Part shown: positions 17,179-40,648 of the stretch, one piece after another
How the letters are laid out: each line of letters starts with the position of its first letter
Position numbering within the stretch: the stretch's first letter is position 1
DNA from: a virus
IMG/VR virus record: IMGVR_UViG_3300021959_007301
Span: 1 to 64,000 of that record
Length of the DNA: 64,000 nt
Strand: one strand, 5' to 3'
Position numbers and translations under genes: made by a program
Notes under the pieces: generated by a model
Database searches by the model: none
Seen by the model: only the letters and a program-made list of their open reading frames with translations
Told to the model about the DNA's origin: nothing

Positions 17179-17195
17179 TAATAAAGAGATAGGAC

Positions 17196-23894: not shown

Positions 23895-24106
23895 TGTCTG
23901 ATTATATTAAAGTAGAAGGTGCAACACATTTATATAGAGACGATAGTTCTCAAGCAATCGTGTCTACTGATATTGAACAGTGGAGACTTGCAAAGAAAAG
24001 AAAAGAGATTTTTAGGAATCAGGTAAACGAGATAAATACATTAAAAGAAGAGATGGGTGAAATTAAGTCTCTCTTAACTGAACTCATGGGGAAATTAAGT
24101 GGCTAG
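23894..24106 (+). CDS. Small conserved phage protein with C-terminal coiled coil
   Basis: 70 residues from the ATG at 23894, which shares a base with the preceding stop; an earlier in-frame ATG at 23876 lies inside the giant gene and is unlikely. The N-terminus MSDYIKVEGATHLYRDDSS is typical of a short protein found next to tail-fibre genes in marine T4-like phages. The last 40 residues are a heptad-patterned helix (INTLKEEMGEIKSLLTELMG). Function unknown. It overlaps the next gene by 8 nt. Confidence 0.75.
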   Translation: MSDYIKVEGATHLYRDDSSQAIVSTDIEQWRLAKKRKEIFRNQVNEINTLKEEMGEIKSLLTELMGKLSG

Positions 24107-25214
24107 AACAGTAGACAATCACAGTACATTAGAAGATTTTAGACGTAATTATAATGACCTCGCTAATGACGTTGGTGACAGGTCAGGTCTTAGAACTGAA
24201 AAACAAAGTACTATCGTAGATGCAATTAATAGTATCGAAGATAAGTCGTTCTTCTTTCAGGAGTTTATCTATACTGCTGGAACACATGGTTCTACACTTT
24301 CAAGATACGAAGGTGTTGATGCATTCAGCAATACATTATCTTTTAAACCTAACAGAATTCAAGTCTTTAAAAACACTCAACACTTAATTGAAGGTGATGA
24401 TTATTCTATTGGGCCTGTGTCAGATGGTCTTGCAGATAGAATTGATTTAGTTGTTGCTGCAACTAATGGTGATAAGATTACTGTTTATGCATTCACTGGT
24501 TCATACTTAGGTGTTGTCGGTGATGGTGCAACCTCAACATACTTTACAGAAACTGCATTAAACACTATTTACAATAATAATGATAACGGTATTATTTTAA
24601 ATGGTGATGGTGCTGATAAAACCGTTGCACTAGAGACAGGATATACAATTCAATTTGCAGGAAGAGTGTATGGTGAAGATGACCTTACACTTGCAAGTGG
24701 AACAACATTCACTTTTGACACTGCAACAAACGGAACACTTACTTTAGATGGTGGTGCTATTACAGGTGCAACCTCTATTACATCAACTGCATTTGTTGGT
24801 GATGTCACTGGTCAAGTATCAGACATTACTAATCATAGTGTAAATAGTCTTTCAGACATTAACACCACTGGTGCAACAAACGGTCAGTTATTAATTTATA
24901 ATGTTTCAACAGGTGATTGGGAAGCAGGTGATGCACCTGCAAACTACACAGATGAACAAGCACAAGATGCAGCTGCATCTATGATTACAAGTGCAACTCA
25001 CAGTAACATAACTGTTACTTATGATGATAATGCAGGAACATTATCATTTTCTGCTGCTGCTCAATATGGTGACTCTGATGTAGATGCACACTTAAGTGGT
25101 AGTAACGGTGTTAGTTACAGTTCAGGTAGTATTAGTTTAGATTATGAGACCACATCTACTGCACCTTCAGGTGTAGGTAGTACTGCAACTGGTCATTTAT
25201 GGTTTGTGATATGA
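24099..25214 (+). CDS. Tail-fibre-like structural protein
   Basis: 371 residues. The first 60 residues (NHSTLEDFRRNYNDLANDVG, then KQSTIVDAINSIE) are a helical N-terminal attachment domain. A beta domain follows (FKPNRIQVFKNTQHLIEGDDYSIG, DKITVYAF), then low-complexity Gly/Thr/Ser repeats of fibre-shaft type. Its place at the head of the fibre cluster and overlap with the small upstream gene suggest a fibre adaptor or short fibre. It ends one base before the next ATG. Confidence 0.72.
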   Translation: MARTVDNHSTLEDFRRNYNDLANDVGDRSGLRTEKQSTIVDAINSIEDKSFFFQEFIYTAGTHGSTLSRYEGVDAFSNTLSFKPNRIQVFKNTQHLIEGDDYSIGPVSDGLADRIDLVVAATNGDKITVYAFTGSYLGVVGDGATSTYFTETALNTIYNNNDNGIILNGDGADKTVALETGYTIQFAGRVYGEDDLTLASGTTFTFDTATNGTLTLDGGAITGATSITSTAFVGDVTGQVSDITNHSVNSLSDINTTGATNGQLLIYNVSTGDWEAGDAPANYTDEQAQDAAASMITSATHSNITVTYDDNAGTLSFSAAAQYGDSDVDAHLSGSNGVSYSSGSISLDYETTSTAPSGVGSTATGHLWFVI

Positions 25215-25215: not shown

Positions 25216-26430
25216 ATGGCTGATGAAATCTATATAAACACAGGGTCGAGTTTTCAACAACCGTACCAAGGTCAATCTGTAAGAAATGCTCAATCGCTAG
25301 AAGTCAGACAGACTCCTGCACAGACTCCTGCAAACGCAAGACAACCTAGTACGTATCAAAACAGACAACCGTTTACCTACAGAAGTCCTGTAAATGCACA
25401 GACACCATTTATAAGAAACGCTCAGCAACCCTTTACATACCAAAACCAAGGTAGAACACCTTTTACCTATAACTATCGTTCTCCGTTCACGTATGCACGT
25501 CAGGGACAGACTCCTTTCACGTATGCAAGACAGGGTAGAACACCATATGTTGCAAATGCACAACAACCGTATCCTTATATCGCAAATAGTCAGACTCCAT
25601 ACATTGCTAATGCTCAACAACCCTATCCGTACATAGCAAACAAACAGAGTCCATACATTGCAAATGGTCAGAGTCCATACATTGCAAATGCTCAGTCACC
25701 TTATATTGCAAACGCTCAACAACCGTATCCGTACATTGCATCGTATCAAAGTCCGTTTACCTATAATCATAGACAACCGTTTACCTATGCAAGACAGGGT
25801 AGGTCACCATTTACGTATAGTAATCAACAACCTTACCCATATATTGCACAGACACCTTATACGTTTAATGCAACTGGAACACAAAGCATCAGTCCTCTAG
25901 ACCAATCTTGGGGCCCATCAGGTGCAAGTCCATGGGTTCCTCGTCAAAGTGTTAACTCTTCAGGATTCCCTGAAGCATTCGCAACAATGGGGTTTAGTTT
26001 AGACACTACAAATAACCAAGTCGATGTTAGCTGGAAAGCTGGTACTTCAGCACAAATGGCAACAGTGTATACCGACTCAATTAATTATCAGTCTCCAGTA
26101 ACAGATTCTTCAACATTTGAATGTAAATATACAGTATCTCAGCAATCGTGTTCAGGTAATTGTATGAGTGGTGCATTTGGGCCCACACCAGTTACCGATG
26201 GGTATAATTCAGGAACATATTATTCACTCACAACATTTGGTTGGATGGCAAAGGTTAATCCAAACTATGGTTCGTCCTTTTCAAGGGTTGAAACTGGTAT
26301 TGGTGGCACATATGGTGTAACATTTACAGTCCGTGCAACTCCTTCAGGAAGTAGTGACAGTTATATTACAACTTATACTTCAGGTGGAATAGAACTGATT
26401 GCATCTACAGGACAGTTTAACGAGAACTAA
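25216..26430 (+). CDS. Repeat-built tail protein 1 (PFTY/PYIANAQ repeats plus C-terminal globular domain)
   Basis: 404 residues. Residues about 35-215 are back-to-back repeats of two lengths: 8 residues (TPYIANAQ, SPFTYNHR) and 10 residues (QPYPYIANAQ, TPFTYARQGQ). Each begins with x-Pro-aromatic and ends in Gln or Arg. There is almost no Lys or acidic residue. Codons differ between copies, so amino-acid sequence rather than DNA is conserved. Residues 216-404 form a separate domain with Cys in SQQSCSGNCMSG. No family is recognised; an elongated beta-structured fibre is inferred. A strong Shine-Dalgarno is absent. Confidence 0.8.
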   Translation: MADEIYINTGSSFQQPYQGQSVRNAQSLEVRQTPAQTPANARQPSTYQNRQPFTYRSPVNAQTPFIRNAQQPFTYQNQGRTPFTYNYRSPFTYARQGQTPFTYARQGRTPYVANAQQPYPYIANSQTPYIANAQQPYPYIANKQSPYIANGQSPYIANAQSPYIANAQQPYPYIASYQSPFTYNHRQPFTYARQGRSPFTYSNQQPYPYIAQTPYTFNATGTQSISPLDQSWGPSGASPWVPRQSVNSSGFPEAFATMGFSLDTTNNQVDVSWKAGTSAQMATVYTDSINYQSPVTDSSTFECKYTVSQQSCSGNCMSGAFGPTPVTDGYNSGTYYSLTTFGWMAKVNPNYGSSFSRVETGIGGTYGVTFTVRATPSGSSDSYITTYTSGGIELIASTGQFNEN

Positions 26431-26432
26431 AA

Positions 26433-27248
26433 ATGGCAGAGTTGCAAACCACACAACAACCGTATCCTTATATTGCACAAGGTCAAACACCTTATGCATT
26501 GCAGGGTAGAACGCCTTATATTGCTAATGCACAGCAACCGTATCCTTATATTGCGAATGCACAAAGTCCATATATTGCTAATGCAAGACAACCTGTAACC
26601 TATGCAAGACAGGGTCAAACACCGTTTACGTATCAGAGTAGACAACCATTTACTTATCAGAACAGACAACCGTTTACATATCAAAATAGACAACCTGTTA
26701 CCTATGCACGTCAAGGTCAAACACCATTTACCTATAGTAACAGACAACCTGCAACGTATGCTAGACAAGGTAGAACACCTTTCACGTATAACAATCAACA
26801 ACCTTATCCGTACATTGCAAATGCTCAACAACCCTATCCGTACATTGCAAATGCACAGGAACCAAATATTAGGTCTGCACAACAGGCATATCCTTACATT
26901 GCAAATGCAAGGAATCCGTTTACCTATCAACATAGGTCACCTTCTACATATAGAAACCCTGTAAATGCACAGAGTCCGTATATTGCAAATAGTCAAACAC
27001 CATTTACCTATCAAGTTGCATATCAGATTCCTTATACTATAAGGTCACCATTTACCTATCAAGTATCCTACCCAACTACAAGAACCGTTGGGCCAGTTGC
27101 AAAGGTTAAAGGTGTTTTTGTGAATGATAGTGGAACACTTAGAAAACTTGATGAAGTATATGTAAACGATGGTGGAACATTAGAAAAAATTCACCAGTCC
27201 GTTCCTACTGCAAGATTCTCTAAGAATCCAAGTAACACGAGTGTATAA
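26433..27248 (+). CDS. Repeat-built tail protein 2 (PFTY/PYIANAQ repeats)
   Basis: 271 residues, 2 nt after the previous stop. Residues 5-215 are the same 8/10-residue repeats (PYIANAQ, PFTYQNRQ, PFTYARQGQT, EPNIRSAQ). The last 45 residues carry two copies of a vyVNDgGTLxK motif (VFVNDSGTLRKLDEVYVNDG), a short beta module seen at the ends of other phage fibre proteins. It lacks the globular C-terminal domain of repeat protein 1. A late promoter overlaps its stop region. Confidence 0.8.
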   Translation: MAELQTTQQPYPYIAQGQTPYALQGRTPYIANAQQPYPYIANAQSPYIANARQPVTYARQGQTPFTYQSRQPFTYQNRQPFTYQNRQPVTYARQGQTPFTYSNRQPATYARQGRTPFTYNNQQPYPYIANAQQPYPYIANAQEPNIRSAQQAYPYIANARNPFTYQHRSPSTYRNPVNAQSPYIANSQTPFTYQVAYQIPYTIRSPFTYQVSYPTTRTVGPVAKVKGVFVNDSGTLRKLDEVYVNDGGTLEKIHQSVPTARFSKNPSNTSV

Positions 27249-27251
27249 ATA
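27244..27251 (+). promoter_or_regulatory. T4-type late promoter placed to give a leaderless mRNA (27257 gene)
   Basis: Perfect TATAAATA, then GTATT, then ATG at 27257. Expected +1 is the A of the ATG. No Shine-Dalgarno sequence is present. Confidence 0.8.
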
Positions 27252-27256
27252 GTATT

Positions 27257-27589
27257 ATGGCGATAATTGCAAACATATACATAGACCAAGGTACTGATTT
27301 TTCCATTACTGTAGACGTTACAGATTCTGCAGGGGAAGTTTTAGAATTAAGTGGTTACACTGCAACTGCACAAGTGAGAAGAACTTATACCTCATCTACA
27401 GTTGCTGCAACCTTTGATACGTCTATTGCAGAATTAGCAGGACAGGTGACTATCTCGTTAACCGATACTGTAACTGCAGGACTGGAAGGTGGAAGATACG
27501 TGTATGACCTAAATATTGAAAGCAGTGCTGGTCAGAAAACTCGTGTTATAGAAGGACAAGCAATTGTCACACCAGGCGTAACGAGGTAA
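27257..27589 (+). CDS. Small Ig-like/beta-sandwich virion protein
   Basis: 110 residues. The pattern IYIDQGTDFSITVDVTDSAG, then LSGYTATAQVRR, then GRYVYDLNIES and GQKTRVIEGQAIVTPGVTR is that of a small beta-sandwich domain widely found in phage tail and baseplate proteins (BppU-like N-terminal type). It probably decorates the fibre or connects subunits. The late promoter lies exactly 5 nt before the start, so its own message should be leaderless. Confidence 0.72.
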   Translation: MAIIANIYIDQGTDFSITVDVTDSAGEVLELSGYTATAQVRRTYTSSTVAATFDTSIAELAGQVTISLTDTVTAGLEGGRYVYDLNIESSAGQKTRVIEGQAIVTPGVTR

Positions 27590-27593
27590 TAAA

Positions 27594-27812
27594 ATGGCAG
27601 GAAATATTAAAGCAAGAGTATTAACAAACAATACAATTCGTGCAAAACAGGTTGCAGTTGGTAACTCATCAACTAATGTAAACTTGTCTGCAAAATCTAT
27701 TAACGAACTTGCAGATGTTAACGTAATTGAAACAGATGAAGGTGTATTGAAGTATAACGCTACTACAGACAAGTGGGAAACCTCTAATGTTTTAGATGGT
27801 GGAACTTTTTAG
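27594..27812 (+). CDS. Small fibre-associated protein
   Basis: 72 residues, 4 nt after the Ig-like gene. The end (SINELADVNVIETDEG, then LKYNATTDKWETSNVLDGG) is the ELxDVN...YNxxTxxWE motif common in phage tail-fibre proteins, where it sits near trimerisation regions. Alone, it may be a fibre connector or a capping piece. Function unknown. Confidence 0.68.
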   Translation: MAGNIKARVLTNNTIRAKQVAVGNSSTNVNLSAKSINELADVNVIETDEGVLKYNATTDKWETSNVLDGGTF

Positions 27813-27828
27813 ATAATTTAAAAAATTT

Positions 27829-28710
27829 ATGTTATGTTCACGTGACGAGTGGTCTCCACTACGTGAGATTGTTGTAGGGACACTCAAAGGATTTCAAAAA
27901 CAAGACAATTATTCAGAGTATCATACTACTGAATTCATATACGATATATTTGTTGAGGCAGAAGAAGGACTTAACAAATTTGTTAATATTCTAGAATCCA
28001 ATAATGTAAAGGTTTACAGACCTAATGGAATGTGTTATAATGTTAGGGATTGTGCTGTCGTCATAGATGATGTTATAGTTGAAGGGTCTATGCGATATGA
28101 AAAAGAGTACGGAAATCTATCTACACTTAAAAAAATATTTTTTGAAAAATGGTCTGAAGGATACACATGGATATCAGGCCCCAAACCTTCTTGGAATTCA
28201 GAATTTGATATTATTTTTGATGGTGCAAATATCTGTAGACTGGGAGATAATCTACTCATTGCAACAAACGAAACTGCAAATCGATATGGAAGATTGTGGT
28301 TAGAAAAACAATTTCCTAATAAAAATATTGATTACATTTCTCTAAGAGATAACATATCACACATAGACACAACTATTGTTCCCATATCAGAGGGTACAGT
28401 TATGATTAATGCTAACAGAGTCAACAAAGACAATGTACCAGTATTTTTTAAAGATTGGGACATTATTTGGATACATGATGAGGATATCGTAGAGGAGAGA
28501 CCTGTCATTAAAGACGAGATAGCAGGAAAAATGATTGGTATGAATACTCTTTCTCTTAATCATAATACACTGTTTGTGAATGAAAGTCAAGTAAAATTAA
28601 TGGATAAATTGGGTAAGAAAGGATTTAATTGTATACCTGTACCTCTAAGATACACACGTGAGTTATCAGGTGGACTACATTGTTGCACTTTAGACCTCGT
28701 TAGAGGTTAA
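27829..28710 (+). CDS. Amidinotransferase-family enzyme (AGAT/StrB-like)
   Basis: 293 residues. The N-terminus SRDEWSPLREIVVGT follows the SxNEWDPLxEVIVG pattern of arginine:glycine and inosamine-phosphate amidinotransferases. Other family motifs are in order: NVRD (71-74), FDGANICR (130-137, equivalent of the FDAADFxR strand), HID (178-180, catalytic His) and GGLHCCTLDL (281-290, catalytic Cys285). The family moves an amidino group from arginine to an amine, or in relatives hydrolyses guanidino groups. All catalytic positions appear intact. It sits within the tail-fibre cluster and is not itself a structural gene. Substrate unknown. Confidence 0.82.
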   Translation: MLCSRDEWSPLREIVVGTLKGFQKQDNYSEYHTTEFIYDIFVEAEEGLNKFVNILESNNVKVYRPNGMCYNVRDCAVVIDDVIVEGSMRYEKEYGNLSTLKKIFFEKWSEGYTWISGPKPSWNSEFDIIFDGANICRLGDNLLIATNETANRYGRLWLEKQFPNKNIDYISLRDNISHIDTTIVPISEGTVMINANRVNKDNVPVFFKDWDIIWIHDEDIVEERPVIKDEIAGKMIGMNTLSLNHNTLFVNESQVKLMDKLGKKGFNCIPVPLRYTRELSGGLHCCTLDLVRG

Positions 28711-28716
28711 AGATGT

Positions 28717-28724
28717 TATAAATA
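28717..28724 (+). promoter_or_regulatory. T4-type late promoter, TATAAATA (28856 fibre gene)
   Basis: Perfect octamer 7 nt after the amidinotransferase stop, giving a leader of about 126 nt before the ATG at 28856. Confidence 0.8.
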
Positions 28725-28739
28725 CTAGTACAAATCAAG

Positions 28740-28816
28740 GTGTCATTCAGTGAGACACGACCCACATGGTGAGTGGACAGGTATATAATGGTCTTCTAGG
28801 GATATGTGAACTAGAA
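28740..28816 (+). other. Structured 5' leader before 28856
   Basis: Two hairpins fall in the long leader: GTGTC (28740-28744) with GACAC (28754-28758), and TTCTAG (28794-28799) with CTAGAA (28811-28816). The ribosome binding site TTAGGAGA follows. This is the longest untranslated gap in the left half; no gene was found in it. Confidence 0.4.
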
Positions 28817-28855
28817 TAAGCTTATTTAAATTAAACACATTTTAGGAGAAATAAA

Positions 28856-30271
28856 ATGGCAACAGTAATTCAAATTAAAAGAAGTACTGGGGTTTCTGCA
28901 CCTACTACGTCAGACCTTTCAGAAGGAGAATTGGCGTATATTCAGGACAGAAGTAACAGTGGTGCTGGTGCAAAACTTTTCATAGAATCAGTTGACTCCG
29001 ACAATAGTACTCCATTAATCCATGCGATTGGTGGTAAGTTCTATACCGATATTATTGATGGTTCATCTGCTACACCAGCAGATTTCAAAGTCGGTAACGG
29101 TTCAACATCAGGTGGTTCTGTAAAGTTTTACGAAGATTCGGACAATGGTGTTCACTTCGTTGCACTTAAGTCGCCAGACTCAGTCGCTTCAGACTTAACT
29201 TTTGTACTTCCAGCATCAGATGGTAGTGCAAACCAAGTATTAGGAACAGACGGTTCAGGTAACCTATCTTTCCTTTCAACAACATCAACACTTGCAGGTG
29301 CATCTGACTCAGATATCTCTACTCCATCATCAGGACAAATCCTTGTTCATGACGGTTCAGATTCATTTGACAACGTAACACTAAGTGGAGACGTGACACT
29401 TGCATCTAATGGTGCAGTCACAATCGCTTCTAACGCAGTTGAAGTCGGTATGATTGACTTCTTAGTTGACGAAGATGACATGAACTCTGATTCAGATGTC
29501 AAAGTCCCTTCACAACAATCTGTTAAAGCATACGTTGATTCACAAGTAACTGCTCAAGATTTAGACGTTGCTGGTGATTCAGGAACAGGTGCAATTGATT
29601 TAGATTCACAATCATTAACGATTGCTGGTACATCTAATGAGATTGAAACATCTGCTTCAGGACAAACAATAACAATCGGTTTACCTAATGACGTAACAGT
29701 AGGAAATGACCTAACAGTTACAGGAAACTTAACAGTTTCAGGAACAACCACAACTGTAGACTCAACAACAGTATCAATTGCAGACCCTGTATTTGAAATT
29801 GGTGACGATTCTGCAGACGACAACCTCGATAGAGGTATTAAATTCAAATATAACGATGGATCTGCTAAAGTAGGTTTCTTCGGTATGGACGAATCTAATG
29901 AGAAGTTCGTAGCATTACATGATGCAACAGACAGTTCTTCAGTATTCACAGGTACAGCAATGGATGCAGTATTTGGTGGATTAGAAGCAACAGGTCTTGC
30001 ATTATCAGGTTCAATTACTTCAGTCGATGGTGCAGCTCCAACTGCAGGTCAATTATTAATTGGTAACGGTTCTAACGGAGACATGGAACTTGCAGCTCTA
30101 ACTGCAGGCTCTAACGGTGTAACAATCACCAACGCAGACGGTTCTATAACTATTGAAAATGCGATTGCTTCTACATCACAAGTTGGTGTGGCATCATTTG
30201 CTTCTTCAGAGTTCTCAGTAACTGGTGCTGGTGAAGTTTCTATCTCCAACATAGACGGTGGTTCATTCTAA
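28856..30271 (+). CDS. Tail-fibre-like protein with GNLTVSGTTTTV shaft module
   Basis: 471 residues with ribosome binding site TTAGGAGA. The N-terminus MATVIQIKRSTG then APTTSDLSEGELAYIQD is the fibre attachment domain also present in the next gene. Near residue 285 is LTVTGNLTVSGTTTTVDSTT, the shaft module shared with the 31629 and 32792 genes, followed by a DNLDRGIKFKYND ... GFFGMDE domain. The body is Ser/Thr/Asp/Gly-rich. Probably a host-range-related fibre. Confidence 0.75.
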   Translation: MATVIQIKRSTGVSAPTTSDLSEGELAYIQDRSNSGAGAKLFIESVDSDNSTPLIHAIGGKFYTDIIDGSSATPADFKVGNGSTSGGSVKFYEDSDNGVHFVALKSPDSVASDLTFVLPASDGSANQVLGTDGSGNLSFLSTTSTLAGASDSDISTPSSGQILVHDGSDSFDNVTLSGDVTLASNGAVTIASNAVEVGMIDFLVDEDDMNSDSDVKVPSQQSVKAYVDSQVTAQDLDVAGDSGTGAIDLDSQSLTIAGTSNEIETSASGQTITIGLPNDVTVGNDLTVTGNLTVSGTTTTVDSTTVSIADPVFEIGDDSADDNLDRGIKFKYNDGSAKVGFFGMDESNEKFVALHDATDSSSVFTGTAMDAVFGGLEATGLALSGSITSVDGAAPTAGQLLIGNGSNGDMELAALTAGSNGVTITNADGSITIENAIASTSQVGVASFASSEFSVTGAGEVSISNIDGGSF

Positions 30272-30300
30272 CAATAATTAATCGTTTATAGGAGTAGCAA

Positions 30301-31125
30301 ATGGCAACAGTAATTCAATTTAAGAGAAGTTCGACTCAAGGTTCTTCGCCGACCACTGGTGATTTATCACTCGGTGAATTAGCGATTAATACATATCATG
30401 GTAGGGTCTATACTGAGGCAGATAATGGAACAGCTTCTATTGTAGAAGTTGGTTCAAATCCTGCAACTCTTACTGTTAACGATGCGTACTCTTTTCCAAC
30501 AAGTGATGGTAACTCTAACGAAGCATTAACAACTGATGGTTCAGGACAGTTAAGTTTCACTGCACTTCCTTCATCAGGAATTGAAACTTTCACCTATTCA
30601 ATCACATCTACTGGTACAGGTATCAGTGGTGCAGATGATAATTCAAACACACTTCAGTACCAAGTAGGTTCTGAACAAGTTTTTATTAATGGTGTTAAGT
30701 TAATAAGTGGTTCAGACTATACTGCAACTTCATCAACCGTAATAACCCTTGCAGAAAATGCTGTAAATGGTGATACAGTTGAAGTCGTTGCAATAACCGA
30801 CACACAAAATCTTGTGCAAGGTTATTATACGGCTAACACTTTCAGTGCAACAACTGCTGACCAAGTTTTATCATCCAATGGAGTCGCAAACAAAGCGATT
30901 AAGTATGTTATAAATGCAACTCACGCCTCTGCAGGAACACATGCTGCAGAAGTATTGTTGATTAACGATGGTACGAATGCATATTTCATCCAATACGGTG
31001 ACGTGTATTCATCATCATCATTGTTCTCACTTAGTTCAGATGTGAATTCAGGTAACATGAGACTTCTCATTACACCTGCAAACACTGACACTACAGTTGA
31101 TACTTTCCAAATTAGGCATTCATAG
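30301..31125 (+). CDS. Tail-fibre-like protein with exchangeable C-terminal domain (copy 1)
   Basis: 274 residues, ribosome binding site ATAGGAGT. The N-terminus MATVIQFKRSST ... TTGDLSLGELAINTYHGRVY copies that of the preceding gene. Residues 95-185 hold a beta domain (QVFINGVKLISGSDYTATSS). The last 80 residues (HAAEVLLINDGTNAYFIQYG, then GNMRLLITPAN) recur in the next two genes. It looks like a short fibre or tip protein. Confidence 0.72.
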   Translation: MATVIQFKRSSTQGSSPTTGDLSLGELAINTYHGRVYTEADNGTASIVEVGSNPATLTVNDAYSFPTSDGNSNEALTTDGSGQLSFTALPSSGIETFTYSITSTGTGISGADDNSNTLQYQVGSEQVFINGVKLISGSDYTATSSTVITLAENAVNGDTVEVVAITDTQNLVQGYYTANTFSATTADQVLSSNGVANKAIKYVINATHASAGTHAAEVLLINDGTNAYFIQYGDVYSSSSLFSLSSDVNSGNMRLLITPANTDTTVDTFQIRHS

Positions 31126-31138
31126 GAGGAGATGAATA

Positions 31139-31549
31139 ATGGCAAAGACAAAAGCATTTGAAATTGCAGAATTGATTAGACACCTTCGATATGATGCTGA
31201 TACAGACGAGATTGTAACTGATAAGGTAACTCAAGACAAAAACAAAAAGAGGGGTAATGCAACAAAAACCTCTACTGACGAATTTGCTCTTGATACTTTT
31301 GCAAAATCAGATTACAGAGCTGGACGATATATCGTTGCAATGTCTGAAGGATCAAAGTATCACTCAACTGAAATCGTGTTAGTTCACGATGGAAGTAGTG
31401 TAACAATGACACAATATGGCACACTTAAATCACACTCGTTAGCAACCTTTGATGCAGACATTTCAGGATCAGACGTAAGACTGCTCGTGACACCTGCATC
31501 CACAAGTTCTACAGTGATTAAATTCGATAGAACAGTAGTCGAAGCATAA
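31139..31549 (+). CDS. Short fibre protein with exchangeable C-terminal domain (copy 2)
   Basis: 136 residues with a strong ribosome binding site (TAGGAGGAG). The first 50 residues are a basic helical start (KAFEIAELIRHLRYDADTDE), and the rest is the C-terminal domain shared with its neighbours (STEIVLVHDGSSVTMTQYG, then SDVRLLVTPAS ... VIKF). It is thus an attachment piece joined directly to the domain, with no shaft. A strong terminator follows. Confidence 0.72.
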   Translation: MAKTKAFEIAELIRHLRYDADTDEIVTDKVTQDKNKKRGNATKTSTDEFALDTFAKSDYRAGRYIVAMSEGSKYHSTEIVLVHDGSSVTMTQYGTLKSHSLATFDADISGSDVRLLVTPASTSSTVIKFDRTVVEA

Positions 31550-31571
31550 AATCAAAAAATGCAATCTAGAT

Positions 31572-31598
31572 GGGGGACTTTATGTCCCCCTTCTTTTA
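31572..31598 (+). terminator. Rho-independent terminator after the 31139 gene
   Basis: GGGGGAC (31572-31578) pairs with GTCCCCC (31584-31590) around a 5-nt loop, followed by TTCTTTTAT. It separates two fibre transcription units; the next begins at the promoter 31616-31623. Confidence 0.88.
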
Positions 31599-31615
31599 TA
31601 TGCACGGTAAAAATG

Positions 31616-31623
31616 ACTAAATA
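31616..31623 (+). promoter_or_regulatory. Late promoter ACTAAATA placed to give a leaderless mRNA (31629 gene)
   Basis: Variant late octamer 5 nt (GTATA) before the ATG at 31629, just after the terminator. No Shine-Dalgarno precedes the ATG, so this gene depends on this promoter and on leaderless initiation. Confidence 0.68.
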
Positions 31624-31628
31624 GTATA

Positions 31629-32462
31629 ATGGCAACGAAACATAAACTTATTGCAGACTTGGGACTTGCAACTAACGGTGACTTGAGTGTTGATGGAAAC
31701 GCAACAATTACAGGAAACTTAACGGTTAATGGTACGACAATTACCATTAACTCTACTACCACATCAGTTGAAGACAGTTTATTAGAACTTGCAAATCAGA
31801 ACACTTCTAGTGACACTATAGATATTGGTTTCTATGGTAACTATGATGATGGTTTATCAGATGATGCAAGTGAGTATACAGGTCTATTCAGAGATGCATC
31901 AGATTCCACATGGAAACTCTTTGATGGTCTAGAAGTCGAGCCAGGAACAACGGTAGACACTACAGGTTCAGGATATGCAAAGGCAGCACTAGAAGTTGGT
32001 GATTTAACTGCAACGACACTCAATGTATCAAACAGTATCACTGGTGCAAGTATATCATACCCAACATCAGACGGAACAAGCGGACAGGTTCTTACAACCA
32101 ATGGCAGTGGAACATTAACATTTCAAGATGCAGGAAGTGGACTTAGTGAAGGTAGTGTAACAACTACATCAACTTCTGAAACAAATTTAGATACATGGTC
32201 TTCTTCAACGTATCGATCCGTTAAATATACTATATCAATTTCAGATAGTACTGCAGGTGATTACGAAATGACTGAGATACATGTACTACACGATGGTACA
32301 AATGCATATTTCTCTCAATTCGGTACTGTACTTGCAGGAACCACGAGTGAATTAGTATCTTTTGGTGTTGATATCAGTGGTGGGGATGTGAGATTAAGAA
32401 TTACACCTGCTTCTACAAACTCTACTGCAATAAAGTTTAAAAAAATTGAAATTGGGGTGTAG
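31629..32462 (+). CDS. Tail-fibre protein with shaft module and exchangeable C-terminal domain (copy 3)
   Basis: 277 residues. Residues 18-45 are the shaft module ATITGNLTVNGTTITINST. A middle part (DASEYTGLFRDASDSTWKLF) follows, and the last 85 residues are the domain shared with the two preceding genes (MTEIHVLHDGTNAYFSQFG, then GDVRLRITPASTNSTAIKF). With an upstream terminator and a leaderless-type promoter it is an independent transcription unit. Confidence 0.75.
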   Translation: MATKHKLIADLGLATNGDLSVDGNATITGNLTVNGTTITINSTTTSVEDSLLELANQNTSSDTIDIGFYGNYDDGLSDDASEYTGLFRDASDSTWKLFDGLEVEPGTTVDTTGSGYAKAALEVGDLTATTLNVSNSITGASISYPTSDGTSGQVLTTNGSGTLTFQDAGSGLSEGSVTTTSTSETNLDTWSSSTYRSVKYTISISDSTAGDYEMTEIHVLHDGTNAYFSQFGTVLAGTTSELVSFGVDISGGDVRLRITPASTNSTAIKFKKIEIGV

Positions 32463-32479
32463 TTTAAACATCACAAACT

Positions 32480-32487
32480 CATAAATA
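32480..32487 (+). promoter_or_regulatory. T4-type late promoter, CATAAATA (32532 gene)
   Basis: One mismatch to the late octamer, giving a leader of about 39 nt. The ATG at 32532 has only a weak TATAGGA upstream. Confidence 0.72.
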
Positions 32488-32531
32488 CAAGTGTTAAACC
32501 ACACTTTTAAGTTTTATAGGACACACAAAAC

Positions 32532-32792
32532 ATGGCAACACAGAATACATTTGTTATAGAGTACGGATTGACAGTGGGTTCTACAGAGGTTATCAATAGT
32601 TCAGGTAAACTACAGGCAACTGCATTATCAGAATTAGACACAGATAGTCTTTCAGAAGGTTCCACGAATCAATACTTTTCAAACACAAGAGCAAGAGGTT
32701 CTATATCACTTGCTACTGGAGAATCAAATTTAAGTTATAATTCATCTACTGGTGAACTTTCATTACCAACAGTTGATGGGGGTAGTATCTAA
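32532..32792 (+). CDS. Mini fibre protein, short relative of the next gene
   Basis: 86 residues. The N-terminus (FVIEYGLTVGSTEVINSSGK) and C-terminus (LSEGSTNQYFSNTRARGSIS, then LSYNSSTGELSLP) match the beginning and the C-terminal part of the adjoining 505-residue fibre. It looks like that fibre with its shaft removed, from either an internal deletion after duplication or a functional connector. It overlaps the next gene by one base. Confidence 0.7.
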   Translation: MATQNTFVIEYGLTVGSTEVINSSGKLQATALSELDTDSLSEGSTNQYFSNTRARGSISLATGESNLSYNSSTGELSLPTVDGGSI

Positions 32793-34309
32793 TGGCAGGG
32801 GAAAAGAATTTTATAATCAAGAATGGTCTGACCGTTGGTAACGTAGAGGTTATCGATAGTTCAGGTAACATCACTGCAAGTGGTGTTGGTGCTGCCGTTC
32901 AAGAAGCAATCGCAGACAAAATCGGTGGTATTATTCAGGGTTCAGGTTCAACCACAGTAACCTATGATGATACAAACGATACTATCACGATTTCATCAAC
33001 TGGTAAGACAGAAGAAGAGATTCAAGATATAGTTGGTGGTCAATTAGTAACCAACGGTTCACATACAAACATTACTGCATCTTACGATGATGCAGGAGAC
33101 GGTGCAGTTGACCTTGTAATTTCAGATGCAACAATTCAATCTAAAATTACTGCTGGAACTGGTGTTTCAGTTTCAAGTGGTGAAGTTAGTATCGGTCAGG
33201 CAGTAGGAACTTCAGATTCACCTTCATTTGCAGGTATGACACTTACAGGTGCATCAACAGTTTCAGGACATATTCTTCCAAGTGCAGATGTTACCTACGA
33301 CTTAGGTTCAGCATCGTATCAATGGAGAGACGTATATGTCGGGTCAGGGTCACTTTATGTTAACGGACAAAAAGTATTAGAAGATAGTTCAGGAACAATC
33401 GTTGTTTCTGCTGACAGTGACCAAAACCTTCAAATGAAAACTGCTGGTAGTGGTGACATTGAGTTCAACCCATCAGGTACAGGTATCATTCAAGCAAAAG
33501 GTACACTTCAAATGTTGGATGGTGAAACAATCACCAACAGTGCAGGTAACGATGTAGAGTTTGGAAACAATATCAGTGTAAACCAAATTGCATCAAGAAG
33601 TGCAGATACTAACTTAGTATTAAGTGGTAATGGAACAGGTAATGTTACACTTAACGATACAGTTGTAATTACTGGAGACCTTACAGTTTCAGGTACAACA
33701 ACTACTGTTAACTCAGAAACAATCAACCTTGCAGATAACATTCTAAATTTAAACTCTGATTTCACATCAGGTTCACCTACTCAAGATGCTGGTTTAAGTA
33801 TCTCAAGAGGTGGTTCAGCTGCAAAAACATTCTTATGGGATGAGACCAACGATAGATGGACAGTCGGTTCAGAGTCTATGGTTGCAGCAACATTTATTGG
33901 TAACTTAACTGGAGATGTAACTGGAACAGTTTCAGATATTTCAAACCATGATACAGACGATGTTTCTGAAGGCTCAACCAATTTATATCATACTACTGCA
34001 AGAGCAAGAGGTTCAATCTCTGCTGGTGGTGATTTATCATACAACAGTTCAACTGGTGTAGTATCATTTACTGAAAGAACAGATTCAGAAGTACAAGGAT
34101 TAATCACTGCAGGAACTGGTGTTTCAGTTTCTTCAGGTCAGGTAAGTATCGGACAGGCAGTTTCAACATCATCAAACGTAGAGTTTACACAAATTAGTAC
34201 AAACTATGCCAACAATAGTGGTGCTGTTGCAAGGAATATACATCAATCAACTTCTACACCTTCATCAGGTGATGGTGCAGTTGGTGACTTGTGGATTTAC
34301 TACGCATAA
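32792..34309 (+). CDS. Tail-fibre protein with shaft module
   Basis: 505 residues. The N-terminus NFIIKNGLTVGNVEVIDSSG is the attachment domain. Near residue 165 is ILPSADVTYDLGSASYQWRD, a motif common in phage fibres. Near 290 is VVITGDLTVSGTTTTVNSET, the shared shaft module. STNLYHTTARARGSIS and YNSSTGVVSF come next. The end (SSGDGAVGDLWIYYA) is short. Likely a long fibre or its distal half. Confidence 0.78.
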   Translation: MAGEKNFIIKNGLTVGNVEVIDSSGNITASGVGAAVQEAIADKIGGIIQGSGSTTVTYDDTNDTITISSTGKTEEEIQDIVGGQLVTNGSHTNITASYDDAGDGAVDLVISDATIQSKITAGTGVSVSSGEVSIGQAVGTSDSPSFAGMTLTGASTVSGHILPSADVTYDLGSASYQWRDVYVGSGSLYVNGQKVLEDSSGTIVVSADSDQNLQMKTAGSGDIEFNPSGTGIIQAKGTLQMLDGETITNSAGNDVEFGNNISVNQIASRSADTNLVLSGNGTGNVTLNDTVVITGDLTVSGTTTTVNSETINLADNILNLNSDFTSGSPTQDAGLSISRGGSAAKTFLWDETNDRWTVGSESMVAATFIGNLTGDVTGTVSDISNHDTDDVSEGSTNLYHTTARARGSISAGGDLSYNSSTGVVSFTERTDSEVQGLITAGTGVSVSSGQVSIGQAVSTSSNVEFTQISTNYANNSGAVARNIHQSTSTPSSGDGAVGDLWIYYA

Positions 34310-34312
34310 ATA
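34305..34312 (+). promoter_or_regulatory. T4-type late promoter, CATAAATA (34344 repeat gene)
   Basis: The octamer overlaps the stop of the preceding fibre gene and gives a leader of about 26 nt before the ATG at 34344 (weak site GTGAGGA). Confidence 0.75.
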
Positions 34313-34343
34313 ATTGCGTAGATTAGTGAGGATAAAAACATAA

Positions 34344-35315
34344 ATGGCGTCAGGTAATCAAAGCGTAAAAACACCTACAGGGTGGAGTGCTACAAGAGGT
34401 GCATGGGTAAAAACTGCACAAGGTACTTGGAGTGCTGTAAAACAAATTTACATCAAAACTCCTACTGGTTGGAATGACGCTTCAGGTCAAGAGTTAACTC
34501 AACAACCTTATCCGTACATTGCAAATGGTCAGTATCCATATATTGCTAATGCACAACAACCTTATCCGTACATTGCAAATGGACAAACACCATATATTGC
34601 AGATGCACAACAACCTTATCCTTATATAGCAAATGCACAATCACCATATATTGCTGATGCACAACAACCTTATCCTTACATTGCAAATGCACAGTCACCT
34701 TATATTGCAAATGGTCAGACACCATTTACGTATCAACATAGACAACCATTTACATATGCTAGACAAGGTCAGACACCATTTACGTATCAACATAGACAAC
34801 CTGTAACATATGCTAGACAAGGACAAACTCCTTTCACATATCAAAACAGACAACCGTTTACCTATCAACATAGGTCACCGTTTACCTATCAACATAGGTC
34901 ACCGTTTACATACAACCATAGGTCTCCATTTACATACAGAAACCCTGTGTCTGCACAAGAACCTAATATTAGAAATGGTCAAACACCGTTCACTTATAGT
35001 GCAAGGTATCCTGCAAATGCTCGATATCCAGCAAACGGTCAAACACCGTTCACTTATAGTGCAAGGTATCCTGCAAATGCAAGACAACCAGTAGCATTTA
35101 GGTCACCGTTTACATATCGTGTACCTTATATTGCTAATGCAAGACAACCAAACAGTGCAAGGAACCCATTTACCTATCGTGTGCCTTATATTGCAAACGC
35201 AAGACAACCAAGTACAGCACAACAACCGTATACGTATAACTTCAGACAGAATGTTGTATACTTCTACGGTGGTGGTGGCGGCGGTGGCGGTTTCTTCCCA
35301 CAACAATTGAAATAA
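34344..35315 (+). CDS. Repeat-built tail protein 3 (PYIANAQ/PFTY repeats, polyglycine end)
   Basis: 323 residues. Residues 1-50 are a distinct basic start with two TPTGW motifs. Residues 52-305 are 8/10-residue repeats: PYIANAQ types first, then PFTYQHRQ/PFTYARQGQT, then RYPANARYPANGQ and RVPYIANARQP types. The C-terminus has eight consecutive glycines followed by FFPQQLK, reminiscent of polyglycine-containing receptor-binding tips. Several repeats are near-identical at DNA level here (periods 24, 54 and 60 nt). Confidence 0.8.
   Translation: MASGNQSVKTPTGWSATRGAWVKTAQGTWSAVKQIYIKTPTGWNDASGQELTQQPYPYIANGQYPYIANAQQPYPYIANGQTPYIADAQQPYPYIANAQSPYIADAQQPYPYIANAQSPYIANGQTPFTYQHRQPFTYARQGQTPFTYQHRQPVTYARQGQTPFTYQNRQPFTYQHRSPFTYQHRSPFTYNHRSPFTYRNPVSAQEPNIRNGQTPFTYSARYPANARYPANGQTPFTYSARYPANARQPVAFRSPFTYRVPYIANARQPNSARNPFTYRVPYIANARQPSTAQQPYTYNFRQNVVYFYGGGGGGGGFFPQQLK
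34713..34820 (+). repeat. Near-identical tandem repeat, period 54 nt
   Basis: GGTCAGACACCATTTACGTA recurs at 34713 and 34767, with nearly the whole 54-nt unit (18 residues) repeated in frame. It lies inside repeat protein 3. Confidence 0.75.
34979..35080 (+). repeat. Near-identical tandem repeat, period 60 nt
   Basis: The stretch starting GTCAAACACCGTTCACTTAT near 34979 is repeated 60 nt later with about 40 identical bases, encoding TPFTYSARYPANAR twice. It indicates recent duplication within repeat protein 3. Confidence 0.75.
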
Positions 35316-35333
35316 TGAGGATTATAAAGTAAA

Positions 35334-36161
35334 ATGGCAACAGGTTTTTATAGGACGATAACAACAGGAAATGCGAGAAGCACGATAAACGTGCAGACTC
35401 CGTTTACCTATAATGCTAGGTATCCTGCATCAGCACAACAACCGTTTACGTTCCAAAACCCATTTACGTATTCCAATAGATATCCTGCATCAGCACAACA
35501 ACCTGTAACTTATCGGTCACCGTTTACATATCGTGTGCCTTATATTGCTAATGCAAGACAACCGTTTACCTATAGAGTACCATTTACATATAGGGTTCCT
35601 TATATTGCTAATGCAAGACAACCGTTTACATACAACTATAGGTCACCATTTACCTATAGAAACCCTGTGTCTGCACAAGAACCAAATATAAGGTCTGCAC
35701 AAGAACCAAATATAAGGTCAGCACAAGAACCTAACATTAGAAATGCACAAAGTCCATATATTGCATCAGCACAACAACCGTACCCATATATTGCAAATGC
35801 ACAATCGCCTTATATTGCTAATGCACAACAACCGTATCCTTACATTGCAAATGGACAATACCCATATATTGCTAGTGCAAGACAACCGTTTACATATCAA
35901 CATAGACAACCAGTGACATATGCAAGACAGGGTCAAACACCTTTCACCTATCAGCATAGACAACCAGTGACATATGCAAGACAGGGTCAAACACCTTTCA
36001 CCTATCAAAATAGACAACCATTTACTTATGCACGTCAAGGTCAAACACCATTTACCTATCAACATAGACAACCGTTTACCTATGCAAGACAGGGTAGAAC
36101 TCCAGTTGCAAGATGGGATGGTGAATTATCACAACAGTGGCCTGCAACACCTATTTCCTAG
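35334..36161 (+). CDS. Repeat-built tail protein 4 (PFTY/PYIANAQ/EPNIRSAQ repeats)
   Basis: 275 residues, 18 nt after repeat protein 3. After about 20 residues (MATGFYRTITTGNARSTINV) nearly the whole protein is repeats: RYPASAQQPF, RVPYIANARQPF, EPNIRSAQ in three copies, PYIANAQS, QPYPYIANAQ, and PFTYQHRQPVTYARQGQT copies. The C-terminal 20 residues (TPVARWDGELSQQWPATPIS) are unique. Arg is frequent and Lys practically absent. Confidence 0.8.
   Translation: MATGFYRTITTGNARSTINVQTPFTYNARYPASAQQPFTFQNPFTYSNRYPASAQQPVTYRSPFTYRVPYIANARQPFTYRVPFTYRVPYIANARQPFTYNYRSPFTYRNPVSAQEPNIRSAQEPNIRSAQEPNIRNAQSPYIASAQQPYPYIANAQSPYIANAQQPYPYIANGQYPYIASARQPFTYQHRQPVTYARQGQTPFTYQHRQPVTYARQGQTPFTYQNRQPFTYARQGQTPFTYQHRQPFTYARQGRTPVARWDGELSQQWPATPIS
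35901..36008 (+). repeat. Tandem 54-nt repeat, two nearly perfect copies
   Basis: Units 35901-35954 and 35955-36008 start CATAGACAACCAGTGACATA and differ by about one base over 54 nt (18 residues, in frame). Other repeats in the same gene differ at many synonymous positions, so this copy is recent. Confidence 0.8.
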
Positions 36162-36200: not shown

Positions 36201-37754
36201 ATGTTTATTGATTTAAAGGAATACGATATTGCAAAAGAAATCCTCTCAAAGGTTGAGGATTTCAGTGGTAAGTATTATCATCTAGGACAAATTGACATAG
36301 ACAGAGATTACTCTGAAAAAGAATCGTATAAGATTCTGAAGTATGTCATGGAAGAAATCATTCCACCAATTAAGATTTTTAAATGGGGTGATTTTGAAAA
36401 GGAACGCAAATCATCTAAGTGGTCACTGTTCAACGGTCTCAAAAATGAAGCACCATGTTATCATAAATTCCTACCTTTAGGATACACCACCAAACCAAGA
36501 AATGAAGAGAAAGGTGTCGCAGGTATGGACACCATTACACTTGATGGTGAGTACATAGATATTGAAAACGAAGTCACATGGAATGATGGATACACTCCTA
36601 CAGAAAGTGATGCAGAGTCATTACATTCAATGTATTACCATGCTGCAAAAGCACACTGGTTAACTCAAAGTATTCAAAAAGAAGGTCTTTGGGCACCAAT
36701 TCAAGGTAAAGTGGTAGAACTTGTTAAAGATAGCAGATATCAATTAAGAATACATCCAGGCTCTGTTAGGTCAGGAGTATTTGAAGAAATGGGTGACCCT
36801 GATATGGAGTTATGTATCATAGATAAGTATGATGCAATCGATTCCCCTGCTGTTACTGTAGATGAACTTATAGAGTATTGGAAAACCAAACTTGATGCAA
36901 GACCTGAATTAAATAAAGACAATGGACACTATAATGTTTCCTTTACACTTATTGAAGGTGCATTAGAGTATAATACAAACTTAATGAACGTAGGTATGTT
37001 TCGTCCAGTTGTATATGAATTCAATAAAAAGGTTACAGAACTTGCAAAAGGTAAACCATTCAATATCTATATTGGATACGACAGTAGACACAGAGACCTG
37101 CCTGAGATTGCAAAAAAATCTATATTAGACACCATCGAAAAGGACACTGGTAATGGTCACTGTATTGAACAGGTAAAATTTAAACCTGAAGTTAAGTTCT
37201 TAGATGTTTCAAAGATACCTGAATACACTAGAGAGTATGCAAATCAATCAACTGAGTTTACTTACAGTAGATTTTTAATTCCATACTTAGAGAACTATGA
37301 AGGATTCAGTATGTTCATTGATGATGACTTCATCTTTCAAAAAAGTTTATTACCTATGTTCTATTATTTAAATCCTGATGATGCTGTTGCATGTATTCAG
37401 TATCCACAATACAAACATGATGGCACTAAGTTTAAAGGTGAGGTAAATATCGATTACCCCAAAAAACTGTGGTCAAGTCTAATGATATTTAACAATGGAC
37501 ATGAAGATTGTAAAAAATTAACACCTGAAGTGGTTAACACTTGGACAGGAAAACAACTCCATCAATTTGAATGGACGGACAAAATCAGTAAGATTCCTGA
37601 ACGATATATATTTACAGAAGGGTATGATGACCCTGAAACTAAATGGGATTTCAACGGTATTCATTACACAAGGGGTGGGCCTTGGGTAGAAAGTATGGAT
37701 TATTCCCACATAAATAATTTAGATATTTACAAAAGATGGGAAATTTTAGTTTGA
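36201..37754 (+). CDS. Glycosyltransferase (GT-A type) with an unassigned N-terminal half
   Basis: 517 residues. Residues 287-517 form a GT-A glycosyltransferase: FNIYIGYDSRH (287-297) as the nucleotide-sugar entry strand, TEFTYSRFLIPYL (351-363), and FIDDDFIF (372-379) as the DxD metal site. SLMIFNNGHEDC (426-437) follows. Residues 1-270 are a separate domain; LTQSIQKEGLWAPIQG ... YQLRIHPGSVR (154-190) recalls the ParB/sulfiredoxin-like layout, but this is weak. It may glycosylate a virion or host-surface component; the preceding genes are repeat-built tail proteins. Substrate unknown. Confidence 0.78.
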   Translation: MFIDLKEYDIAKEILSKVEDFSGKYYHLGQIDIDRDYSEKESYKILKYVMEEIIPPIKIFKWGDFEKERKSSKWSLFNGLKNEAPCYHKFLPLGYTTKPRNEEKGVAGMDTITLDGEYIDIENEVTWNDGYTPTESDAESLHSMYYHAAKAHWLTQSIQKEGLWAPIQGKVVELVKDSRYQLRIHPGSVRSGVFEEMGDPDMELCIIDKYDAIDSPAVTVDELIEYWKTKLDARPELNKDNGHYNVSFTLIEGALEYNTNLMNVGMFRPVVYEFNKKVTELAKGKPFNIYIGYDSRHRDLPEIAKKSILDTIEKDTGNGHCIEQVKFKPEVKFLDVSKIPEYTREYANQSTEFTYSRFLIPYLENYEGFSMFIDDDFIFQKSLLPMFYYLNPDDAVACIQYPQYKHDGTKFKGEVNIDYPKKLWSSLMIFNNGHEDCKKLTPEVVNTWTGKQLHQFEWTDKISKIPERYIFTEGYDDPETKWDFNGIHYTRGGPWVESMDYSHINNLDIYKRWEILV

Positions 37755-38363: not shown

Positions 38364-39086
38364 ATGTCTGATTTTGATATTGTGTACTTGGATGAACCAT
38401 TCAAGGTCACAGAACTACCACTTAAAAAAATCTATGTAATTGATGACTATCTATGTACAGAATTACATCATCATATAGATAAAATTTTAACCAATAGTTC
38501 TATATGGTCTAAGACCAATCAAGTAAGCAGTAGAAATCCCACAGGATTACCACATCATAGTTTTTGGGGTGCAAGTTTTCTTAGAGAGGATGAAAGATTA
38601 GAACAAGGTCAAGATGAATATCACTCCTATATACCTTTATGGTTTAACCGAAGAATCCAAACTGACTTTCAATTTAAGTGGATTAGATTTCAATACATGG
38701 GATTGAATAGTCAGACACAAGGATTACATGGAACCACTCACTCTGATTGTGCTGACCATGATGAATGGAATCTATCTTTTTTATATTACTATAATAGATT
38801 TTGGAACAAGGAGTGGGGTGGAAATTTAAGATTTTATGATGAACCACAGTTTGGACTTCAAGGTAGAGACGAACACATTAAAAACCATCAGATAGGTGAA
38901 GTTGAATTCAAACCTAATAGGTTATTAATGTTTGATGGTAGAATACCACATGGTGCAGATGCACCAACACCTAAAGCAAAATATGTAGACAGAAGGTCAA
39001 TTGTTCTTAGAGGTGACGAGGTTCAATTAATAGATAGTGAGGAAATGTTTAGTGCCAACGATAGAGTTCACAACATACGATACTGA
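38364..39086 (+). CDS. 2-oxoglutarate/Fe(II)-dependent oxygenase 1
   Basis: 240 residues. The double-stranded beta-helix residues are visible: H126-x-D128 in GTTHSDC, distal H196 in GRIPHGAD, and R211 in RRSIVLR, the 2-oxoglutarate anchor. WGGNLRFYDE (151-160) is the usual strand before the distal His. The prolyl-4-hydroxylase-like family hydroxylates protein side chains or small molecules. The stretch LLMFDGRIPHGA is typical of phage members. It overlaps the next gene by 35 nt. Confidence 0.85.
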   Translation: MSDFDIVYLDEPFKVTELPLKKIYVIDDYLCTELHHHIDKILTNSSIWSKTNQVSSRNPTGLPHHSFWGASFLREDERLEQGQDEYHSYIPLWFNRRIQTDFQFKWIRFQYMGLNSQTQGLHGTTHSDCADHDEWNLSFLYYYNRFWNKEWGGNLRFYDEPQFGLQGRDEHIKNHQIGEVEFKPNRLLMFDGRIPHGADAPTPKAKYVDRRSIVLRGDEVQLIDSEEMFSANDRVHNIRY

Positions 39087-39954: not shown

Positions 39955-40648
39955 ATTACTATTTCCTAATTTTGTATTTGAAAGAAACTTATTAGACCCA
40001 AACTTGGATAAAAGAAGAGGAATAACTAATGAGTATCTTCAACAGTGTGTAGATGCAATAGATGGTATGAGAAGAAAAGACCCTGAAGGTAGAAGAGTAT
40101 CTAATGCATATACTGGTTGGCAATCAAACGATGGGTGTGAATCAAATCCAATTTTACAACAGTTAATGAGAAAAATAGAACAACTTTTTAAAGATGAAGT
40201 ATTTCCTTTTCATGGATTAGACCAAACAAAAACATCGATACATATTGGTAACTCTTGGGCTAACGTAAACGATTTCTCTGCATGGAATAAACCACATATG
40301 CATAATGGATGTTGGTATAGTGGTGTGTTTTATATAAAGGGAGACGGTGATGAAGGTTGCATAGATATGGTCGATAAAGATGTTAAGGTTGTGTCTGATT
40401 TTCCACATTCACCTCGGGCGCCAGGTTCTATGAGTTATGCACCCACATCAGGTATGTTAATTTTATTTCCTAGTGGATTGATGCATATGGTAGAACCCAA
40501 CATGACAGATAAAGACCGATACAGCATTTCATTCAATATGGTAGTTAAATACCATGGTGATGGAGGTCAATTTGGTGAACCACAAAACTACCATCCTGAT
40601 GAATTTCTTTTTGAAATAGACGAAAACGGTGACCCTATAATGGGTTGA
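39944..40648 (+). CDS. 2-oxoglutarate/Fe(II)-dependent oxygenase 2
   Basis: 234 residues. NSWANVNDFSAWNKPHMHNG (103-122) and SGVFYIKGD (126-134) belong to the 2OG-Fe(II) oxygenase type common in marine phages (PF13759-like). H118 and H120 lie in the metal strand, the distal His is H181 in FPSGLMHMVEP, and the 2OG-binding Arg is R192 before YSISFN. The metal triad shows HxH rather than HxD at the first site, as in other members of this type. It overlaps the DUF6065-like gene by 11 nt. Confidence 0.83.
   Translation: MAVRLLFPNFVFERNLLDPNLDKRRGITNEYLQQCVDAIDGMRRKDPEGRRVSNAYTGWQSNDGCESNPILQQLMRKIEQLFKDEVFPFHGLDQTKTSIHIGNSWANVNDFSAWNKPHMHNGCWYSGVFYIKGDGDEGCIDMVDKDVKVVSDFPHSPRAPGSMSYAPTSGMLILFPSGLMHMVEPNMTDKDRYSISFNMVVKYHGDGGQFGEPQNYHPDEFLFEIDENGDPIMG

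Follow-up and report, generated by a model that had tools for sequence, protein, structure and literature searches.

The 64,000-nucleotide stretch of DNA analyzed here, referred to as the window, comprises positions 1 to 64,000 of the 87-kb virus record IMGVR_UViG_3300021959_007301 and encodes four repeat-rich proteins, designated A, B, C, and D. The four genes form two partner pairs, A with B and C with D, and within each pair the repeat units of one protein are complementary to those of the other read backwards, i.e., nearly every unit has the same length as the unit it faces and belongs to the opposite class, with aromatic units (class T) opposite small-residue units (class I). We propose, with a probability of about 0.87, that each pair, A/B and C/D, makes up one out-and-back tail fiber, the arms of which are zipped together in antiparallel orientation by a peptide code. 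The genes and their parts are as follows.

25216..26430, plus strand: gene A, 404 residues, with a base anchor (MADEIYINTG...), an outgoing repeat arm, and a C-terminal tip domain
25342..25851, plus strand: outgoing repeat arm of A, in which 20 consecutive units pair with reversed B units by equal length and opposite class (unit alignment)
25858..26427, plus strand: tip domain of A, 190 residues, predicted to be all-beta (AlphaFold2 predicted local distance difference test [pLDDT] of 79), with other domains in its place in relatives
26433..27248, plus strand: gene B, 271 residues, with a returning repeat arm and a C-terminal base anchor
26487..26996, plus strand: returning repeat arm of B, complementary to A when read backwards (unit alignment)
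27099..27200, plus strand: C-terminal anchor of B (KVKGVFVNDSGTLRKLDEVYVNDGGTLEKIHQ; phrog_13729 match)
34344..35315, plus strand: gene C, 323 residues, with an N-terminal anchor of about 50 residues (KTPTGW...KTPTGW), an outgoing arm, and a Gly-rich tail
34503..35204, plus strand: outgoing repeat arm of C; each of its 30 units has the length of the facing reversed D unit, and 29 are opposite in class (unit alignment)
35223..35312, plus strand: Gly-rich distal tail of C, in place of which relatives have a Hint/intein-like or other domain
35334..36161, plus strand: gene D, 275 residues, with a returning arm and the conserved C-terminal anchor RWDGELSQQWPATPIS
35397..36098, plus strand: returning repeat arm of D, complementary to C when read backwards (unit alignment)

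Units were parsed by cutting at each x-Pro, which yielded lengths of 6, 8, or 10 residues. An earlier, sequence-only reading had described four open reading frames (ORFs) dominated by Pro, Tyr, Gln, and Arg repeats of 8 and 10 residues, and inspection of the ORFs bore out their positions and composition. The 8- and 10-residue units are present, but that inventory was incomplete because a 6-residue class (SPFTYR, NPVSAQ, and YPANAR) is also frequent, and the genes are not almost wholly repeat as had been thought; repeats dominate, but A, B, C, and D each have nonrepeat terminal parts. The reverse unit-by-unit complementarity within each gene pair was missed. Class T units include xPFTYQNR, xPFTYR, and xPxTYARQGQ, while class I units include xPYIANAQ, xPNIRSAQ, xPVSAQ, and QPYPYIANAQ. 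Successive prolines were an even number of residues apart in 121 of 122 cases in the repeat ORFs of the window, and the even share among 174 unique related ORFs was 98.4% (5,675 cases); as a control, eleven other ORFs of the window gave 53 even and 64 odd spacings. Residue faces follow a strict two-residue alternation: relative to Pro, Tyr (99%), Phe (98%), Val (95%), His (96%), and Ala (89%) occupy the odd face and Ile (93%) the even face. It had also been remarked that synonymous codons differ between copies, and indeed seven copies of YPYIANAQ have seven different DNA sequences; measured against relatives, the ratio of nonsynonymous to synonymous substitution rates (dN/dS) lies between 0.12 and 0.21 for B, C, and D and resembles that of neighboring genes. 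The absence of a characterized family held up as well, in that the repeats have no Pfam or PDB match and their PHROG matches are weak and restricted to families of unknown function. Among the other viral loci compared with the window, which carry L-numbers as labels, L061, L073, L099, and L104 contain further unit alphabets (e.g., TGNTRSPFTYAYQVDARGNTQEP), which are only partly read by the simple parser.

Pairing was evaluated by reading A or C from its N-terminal end and the partner, B or D, from its C-terminal end and comparing unit length and class. With two anchor units trimmed from the C-D pairing, the units of C are 10I 8I 10I 8I 10I 8I 10I 8I 8T 10T 8T 10T 8T 8T 8T 8T 6T 6I 8I 8T 6I 6I 8T 6I 6T 6T 8I 6I 6T 8I, and reversed D equals this series in length at 30 of 30 units and carries the opposite class at 29 of them. 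The same statistic for C against shuffled D had a mean of 5.8 and a maximum of 18 in 20,000 shuffles. Between A and reversed B, 20 of 22 units match (shuffle maximum of 13 over 5,000 shuffles × 13 offsets), with one unit boundary of B that has QA for QP taken as a boundary, while the cross-pairs A:D, C:B, A:C, and B:D and the parallel orientations scored only 7 to 10. A correlation of motif class over whole arms did not separate antiparallel from parallel, unlike unit parsing, because the code is heterotypic, not homotypic. Units that face each other are FTYR opposite NPVSAQ or YPANAR at six residues; FTYQHR-S opposite EPNIRSAQ, FTYQNR-Q opposite TPYIANAQ, and FTYNAR-Y opposite VPYIANAR at eight; and xTYARQGQ opposite QPYPYIANAQ at ten.

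The same complementarity was found in relatives of the window. Over 49 distinct C-D pairs, 1520 of 1608 aligned units (94.5%) were equal in length, and 1377 were of opposite class (94%) compared to 88 of the same class. The matched run counted from the base had a median of 23 units for partners and 5 for nonpartners and a mean of 0.04 in the parallel orientation, and the true partner ranked first in 41 of the 49 pairs; stretches of consecutive matched units reached 68 in L099 and 59 in L055. In 16 A-B pairs, 209 units were of opposite class and 19 of the same class. Arm lengths of C and D agree over 200 to 543 residues (e.g., 483/483, 527/527, and 536/537; median ratio, 1.00); a few pairs, such as L061, L073, and L017, look unequal because the simple length measure misparsed them. 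For A and B, arm lengths correlate with an r of 0.94. Eight loci (L020, L087, L267, L271, L276, L285, L293, and L296) have the gene order D-C instead of C-D, and their pairs are counted in the complementarity statistics. In L117, C is apparently broken into two repeat ORFs (286 and 294 residues), the summed repeat arms of which roughly equal the arm of L117 D (538 residues).

Complementarity extends to individual residues. Covariation between positions of T units and positions of I units was measured as excess mutual information relative to shuffles confined to each genome. For C-D, it peaked where the T position and the I position add up to the unit length L, at 2.72 bits for L = 8, 2.45 for L = 6, and 1.26 for L = 10, mainly at even positions; A-B repeated this peak for lengths 8 and 10, with the 50 six-residue pairs peaking at a sum of 8, not 6. 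A peak at this sum corresponds to an antiparallel beta-strand register, in which the F and Y of T units face small residues of I units. Subtype pairing is near one-to-one: EPNIR units (ENR) stood opposite (H/Y)R-S in 222 of 223 cases, VPYIA units opposite AR-Y in 88 of 90, and TPYIA units opposite NR-Q in 90 of 98.

Partner genes also change in concert. From L011 to L046, 8T,10T is inserted in C and 8I,10I in D, both at unit 10; from L019 to L123, 8T takes the place of 6T,6I,8I in C and 8I that of 6I,6T,8T in D, both at unit 14; and from L017 to L055, a six-unit block is inserted in both C and D at unit 40. Length changes of C and D correlate at 0.84 over 89 related comparisons that are not independent of one another. 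These events raise the question of how two genes gain matching units at matching places.

A sister lineage carries the two arms in one chain. A 135-kb contig of the same clade, with a portal protein 74% identical, has no separate C and D and instead a single ORF of 1382 residues with a C-type N-terminus, a D-type C-terminus, and two repeat arms separated by a globular, Gly-rich internal domain, the arms being written in a different alphabet of 14- and 16-residue units (RPVQQSYQYHNRVPRR and RPARVQVLQRVSRQ). A and B are likewise fused in one ORF of 746 residues, opened by the A-type N-terminus. In the C+D fusion, the outgoing arm has 32 units with lengths of 14,14,14,16x5,14,14,16x3,14,16x3,14x4,16x11, and reading the returning arm backwards gives an identical series; the A/B fusion exhibits the same mirror image of unit lengths, and contigs 80 to 87% identical show that of C/D nearly exactly. 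Arms of 205/207 and about 526/515 residues flank the globular domain of the fused relatives. Since an internal domain of about 240 residues is too short to span extended arms of about 520 residues, coextensive arms must be antiparallel, which puts the domain at the apex and both arm ends at the base. Altogether, the results make it likely that the two proteins carry a digital, near one-to-one pairing code of at least six letter pairs of fixed length, which zips up to 68 units, that their genes lengthen and shorten in concert, and that the sister lineage uses a 14/16-residue alphabet in a single mirror-image chain.

In the proposed fiber, A and C would be anchored by their N-termini on the baseplate side and extend outward as long beta arms ending in a distal tip domain, while B and D would run back and be anchored by their C-termini. 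The arms would lie antiparallel and in register over their whole length as a beta ribbon, each aromatic T unit opposite a small-residue I unit of the same length. Such a ribbon would explain why the prolines stay on one parity, as the backbone NH groups of two antiparallel strands face outward only at every second residue. At about 0.33 nm per residue, the predicted fiber would be about 80 nm long for C/D of the window and up to about 180 nm in relatives. As a two-stranded ribbon is unlikely to be stable alone, higher-order association, for example of three ribbons, is expected, and a trimeric form is probable. By the same model, the proteins would be part of the virion, with the tip presumably binding the receptor.

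The sequence-only reading had favored a repetitive beta-solenoid or a fibrous surface. The present analysis agrees with fibrous surface proteins in a tail-fiber cluster but not with a solenoid formed by each protein alone. Independent folding of each protein into a beta-solenoid or fibrous surface protein, with no interaction within the pairs, is in keeping with the even-length, beta-like repeats, their two-face alternation, and their place in the fiber cluster, but it leaves unexplained the complementarity, the equal arms, the covariation at a constant sum, the concerted insertions and deletions (indels), and the mirror-image fusions. In addition, units of 6, 8, and 10 residues in free order give no constant rungs, and AlphaFold2 with an alignment of D alone (31 sequences) found no solenoid and no other fold (pLDDT of 34; predicted template modeling score of 0.12); we therefore regard self-folding as highly improbable. 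Only slightly better, and still very unlikely, is the possibility that the complementarity is a relic of an ancestral fold-back repeat protein that was later split, with no pairing at present. The fused mirror-image relatives are what such an origin would leave, whereas the indels and class switches matched at the same unit among close relatives, the covariation of code letters within genomes, the divergence of nonpartners from the same clade (median run of 5), and the constraint seen in dN/dS speak for pairing today.

The two arms may also covary through a third linear partner or template that both bind, such as another fiber protein or a chaperone. In its favor, six or more strands are likely in the fiber; against it, the covariation is direct and one-to-one between facing residues, and the cluster showed no third repeat gene whose units match, so that we give this explanation a similarly small chance of being right. 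Finally, an arrangement that is formally reverse-complementary invites the thought that the genes are complementary as DNA or RNA. Cognate units compared with the reverse complement of their partners had 25% identity, which equals chance, and the RNA duplex energies of cognate and noncognate units were alike (−0.24 versus −0.23 kcal/mol per nucleotide); nucleic acid pairing is thereby ruled out for practical purposes.

Several observations weigh against the two-chain fiber itself. About 5% of units mismatch, and all pairs come from one phage clade and are thus not phylogenetically independent. One-sided indels occur in C among close relatives with no matching change in D (L020/L296 and L011/L258), which may be evolutionary intermediates or assembly errors. 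The predicted fold of the A tip had no significant PDB match by Foldseek, and the monomer AlphaFold2 model of D described above is uninformative.

D ends in the conserved RWDGxxSQQWPATPIS. The tips vary: A of the window has a predicted beta domain, and relatives carry Gly-rich ends, modules of the Hint/intein type, or domains of other kinds; in L013 and L047, the A and C of a single contig bear the same type of tip domain. A Hint/intein-like domain follows a Gly-rich stretch at the C-terminus of C in L009, L024, L031, L037, L063, L070, L079, L088, L096, L103, and L126, and C of the window has none. In L009, L024, and L103, this tip reads GGGGCF...HN, with a starting Cys and a terminal HN, and its matches to Hint, Vint, and Intein_splicing are below 1e-3, mostly under the Pfam cut-offs. 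Because these domains start with Cys and end with HN and a non-nucleophilic residue, self-cleavage at the fiber tip is suggested rather than splicing.

The window encodes T4-like baseplate, neck, terminase, sheath, and portal genes, and the repeat genes have a baseplate wedge gene and the gene for a VrlC-like protein of 2232 residues upstream of them and neck genes downstream (phrog_211 and phrog_460, at 40972 and 41790), which is a tail-fiber/host-recognition position. Relatives keep the order of upstream fiber gene, A, B, assembly protein, fiber genes, C, D, glycosyltransferase, 2-oxoglutarate (2OG)-Fe(II) oxygenases, and neck, in line with the earlier remark that the two pairs bracket other fiber-like genes. 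The neighbors are as follows.

24099..25214, plus strand: conserved fiber-like gene directly upstream of A in relatives (gene neighborhood)
27257..27589, plus strand: small protein downstream of B resembling an L-shaped tail fiber assembly family (phrog_3304; PHROG match and neighborhood)
36201..37754, plus strand: conserved N-terminal domain and GT8/GT24-like glycosyltransferase (conserved neighborhood)
38364..39086, plus strand: 2OG-Fe(II) oxygenase (PF13640), possible modifying enzyme
39944..40648, plus strand: 2OG-Fe(II) oxygenase (PF13759), possible modifying enzyme

When homologues of the glycosyltransferase were fetched without using the repeats, a repeat ORF lay immediately upstream in 68 of 68 testable loci, and the full-length form of 36201-37754, with N-terminal domain and glycosyltransferase, was found only beside repeat genes. 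More speculatively, the repeats may be substrates of the adjacent glycosyltransferase and oxygenases. Oxygenases occupy the same place in HTVC008M and Mosig, although no such repeats were found there, which weakens the idea of repeat-specific 2OG-oxygenases. Between the two pairs, at 27829-28710, some relatives share with the window a weakly arginine deiminase/amidinotransferase-like protein that could act on the Arg-rich repeats. Cyanophage S-CREM1 (L228) offers a parallel for fiber-protein modification at 9048-18527, where a collagen-like gene precedes a series of 2OG-Fe(II) oxygenases and a tryptophan halogenase. The interval from the VrlC-like gene to the neck is the named host recognition cluster of pelagimyophages, and in pelagimyophages and cyanomyophages this cluster likewise holds fibers, glycosyltransferases, and oxygenases at the same place (PMC7029224). 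Scans of HTVC008M (1-50 kb) and Melnitz (85-130 kb) turned up no repeat genes of this type, and neither did a tblastn search of the phage collection described below.

In IMG/VR, at least 119 stretches match a DNA pattern for PYIANAQ, and 113 loci hold repeat ORFs; in GTDB genomes, PYIANAQ was found only as isolated chance matches. By tblastn, C had no match in 50,697 cultured phage records, a collection that may leave out records very near the window; as a control, the same query with the low-complexity filter on recovered 117 of 119 positive-control loci. Portal proteins of the repeat-bearing contigs are 75 to 92% identical to that of the window, compared to 56% for the best cultured phage. 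These identities and the lack of a cultured match to C indicate one uncultured clade with no match in that collection. A weak match in Vibrio phage 1.185.O proved to be an unrelated SNTGDYSAA repeat, and matches in Pseudomonas phages were also weak. In the Vibrio phage record L223 (MG592551.1), clustered regularly interspaced short palindromic repeat (CRISPR) spacers are annotated at 6038-6255 inside the SNTGDYSAA protein repeat, probably a false call.

The closest likeness among known fibers is the distal needle of T4 gp37, in which stem residues 882-931 and 960-1009 enclose an inserted tip of residues 932-959 (PMC6957217). Stem and tip of gp37 D11 are likewise an out-and-back chain with a receptor-binding tip at the apex, equal arms, and both arm ends at a base domain. 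The gp37 arms are 50 residues long, encoded by one gene, and carry metal-binding histidines, whereas the arms described here span 170 to 540 residues, up to ten times longer, consist of coded 6-, 8-, and 10-residue units, and are mostly divided between two genes. The gp37 needle is a homotrimer with axial metal ions held by histidines; in the repeats described here, His occurs only in some T units. A to D had no gp37-like Pfam or PHROG match, and C had no PDB match. To our knowledge, no repeat code has been described for gp37.

Antiparallel modular pairing along a string is reportedly found in the tandem beta-zipper of fibronectin-binding proteins with F1 modules. There, folded modules meet a disordered chain, whereas here both sides are arms of short-unit repeats with a code matched in length and class. 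The triple beta-spiral and other trimeric shafts (adenovirus, T4 gp12/gp34, and T5 pb1) combine a repetitive beta fiber with a distal receptor-binding domain; unlike the pairs here, they consist of one chain type running in one direction, with no complementary partner gene. No description of a two-protein unit code was found in the open-access literature, and no natural pair of proteins is known to us that shows unit-by-unit reverse complementarity across hundreds of residues. The architecture points to a new way of building a long fiber from two protein chains and offers a structural explanation for the fibers of a widespread group of uncultured marine T4-like phages. It would also join coiled coils as a second protein architecture whose pairing rules can be read, and its modules of 6, 8, and 10 residues are directly testable as peptides. 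If true, the code would provide a general principle for programmable protein duplexes.
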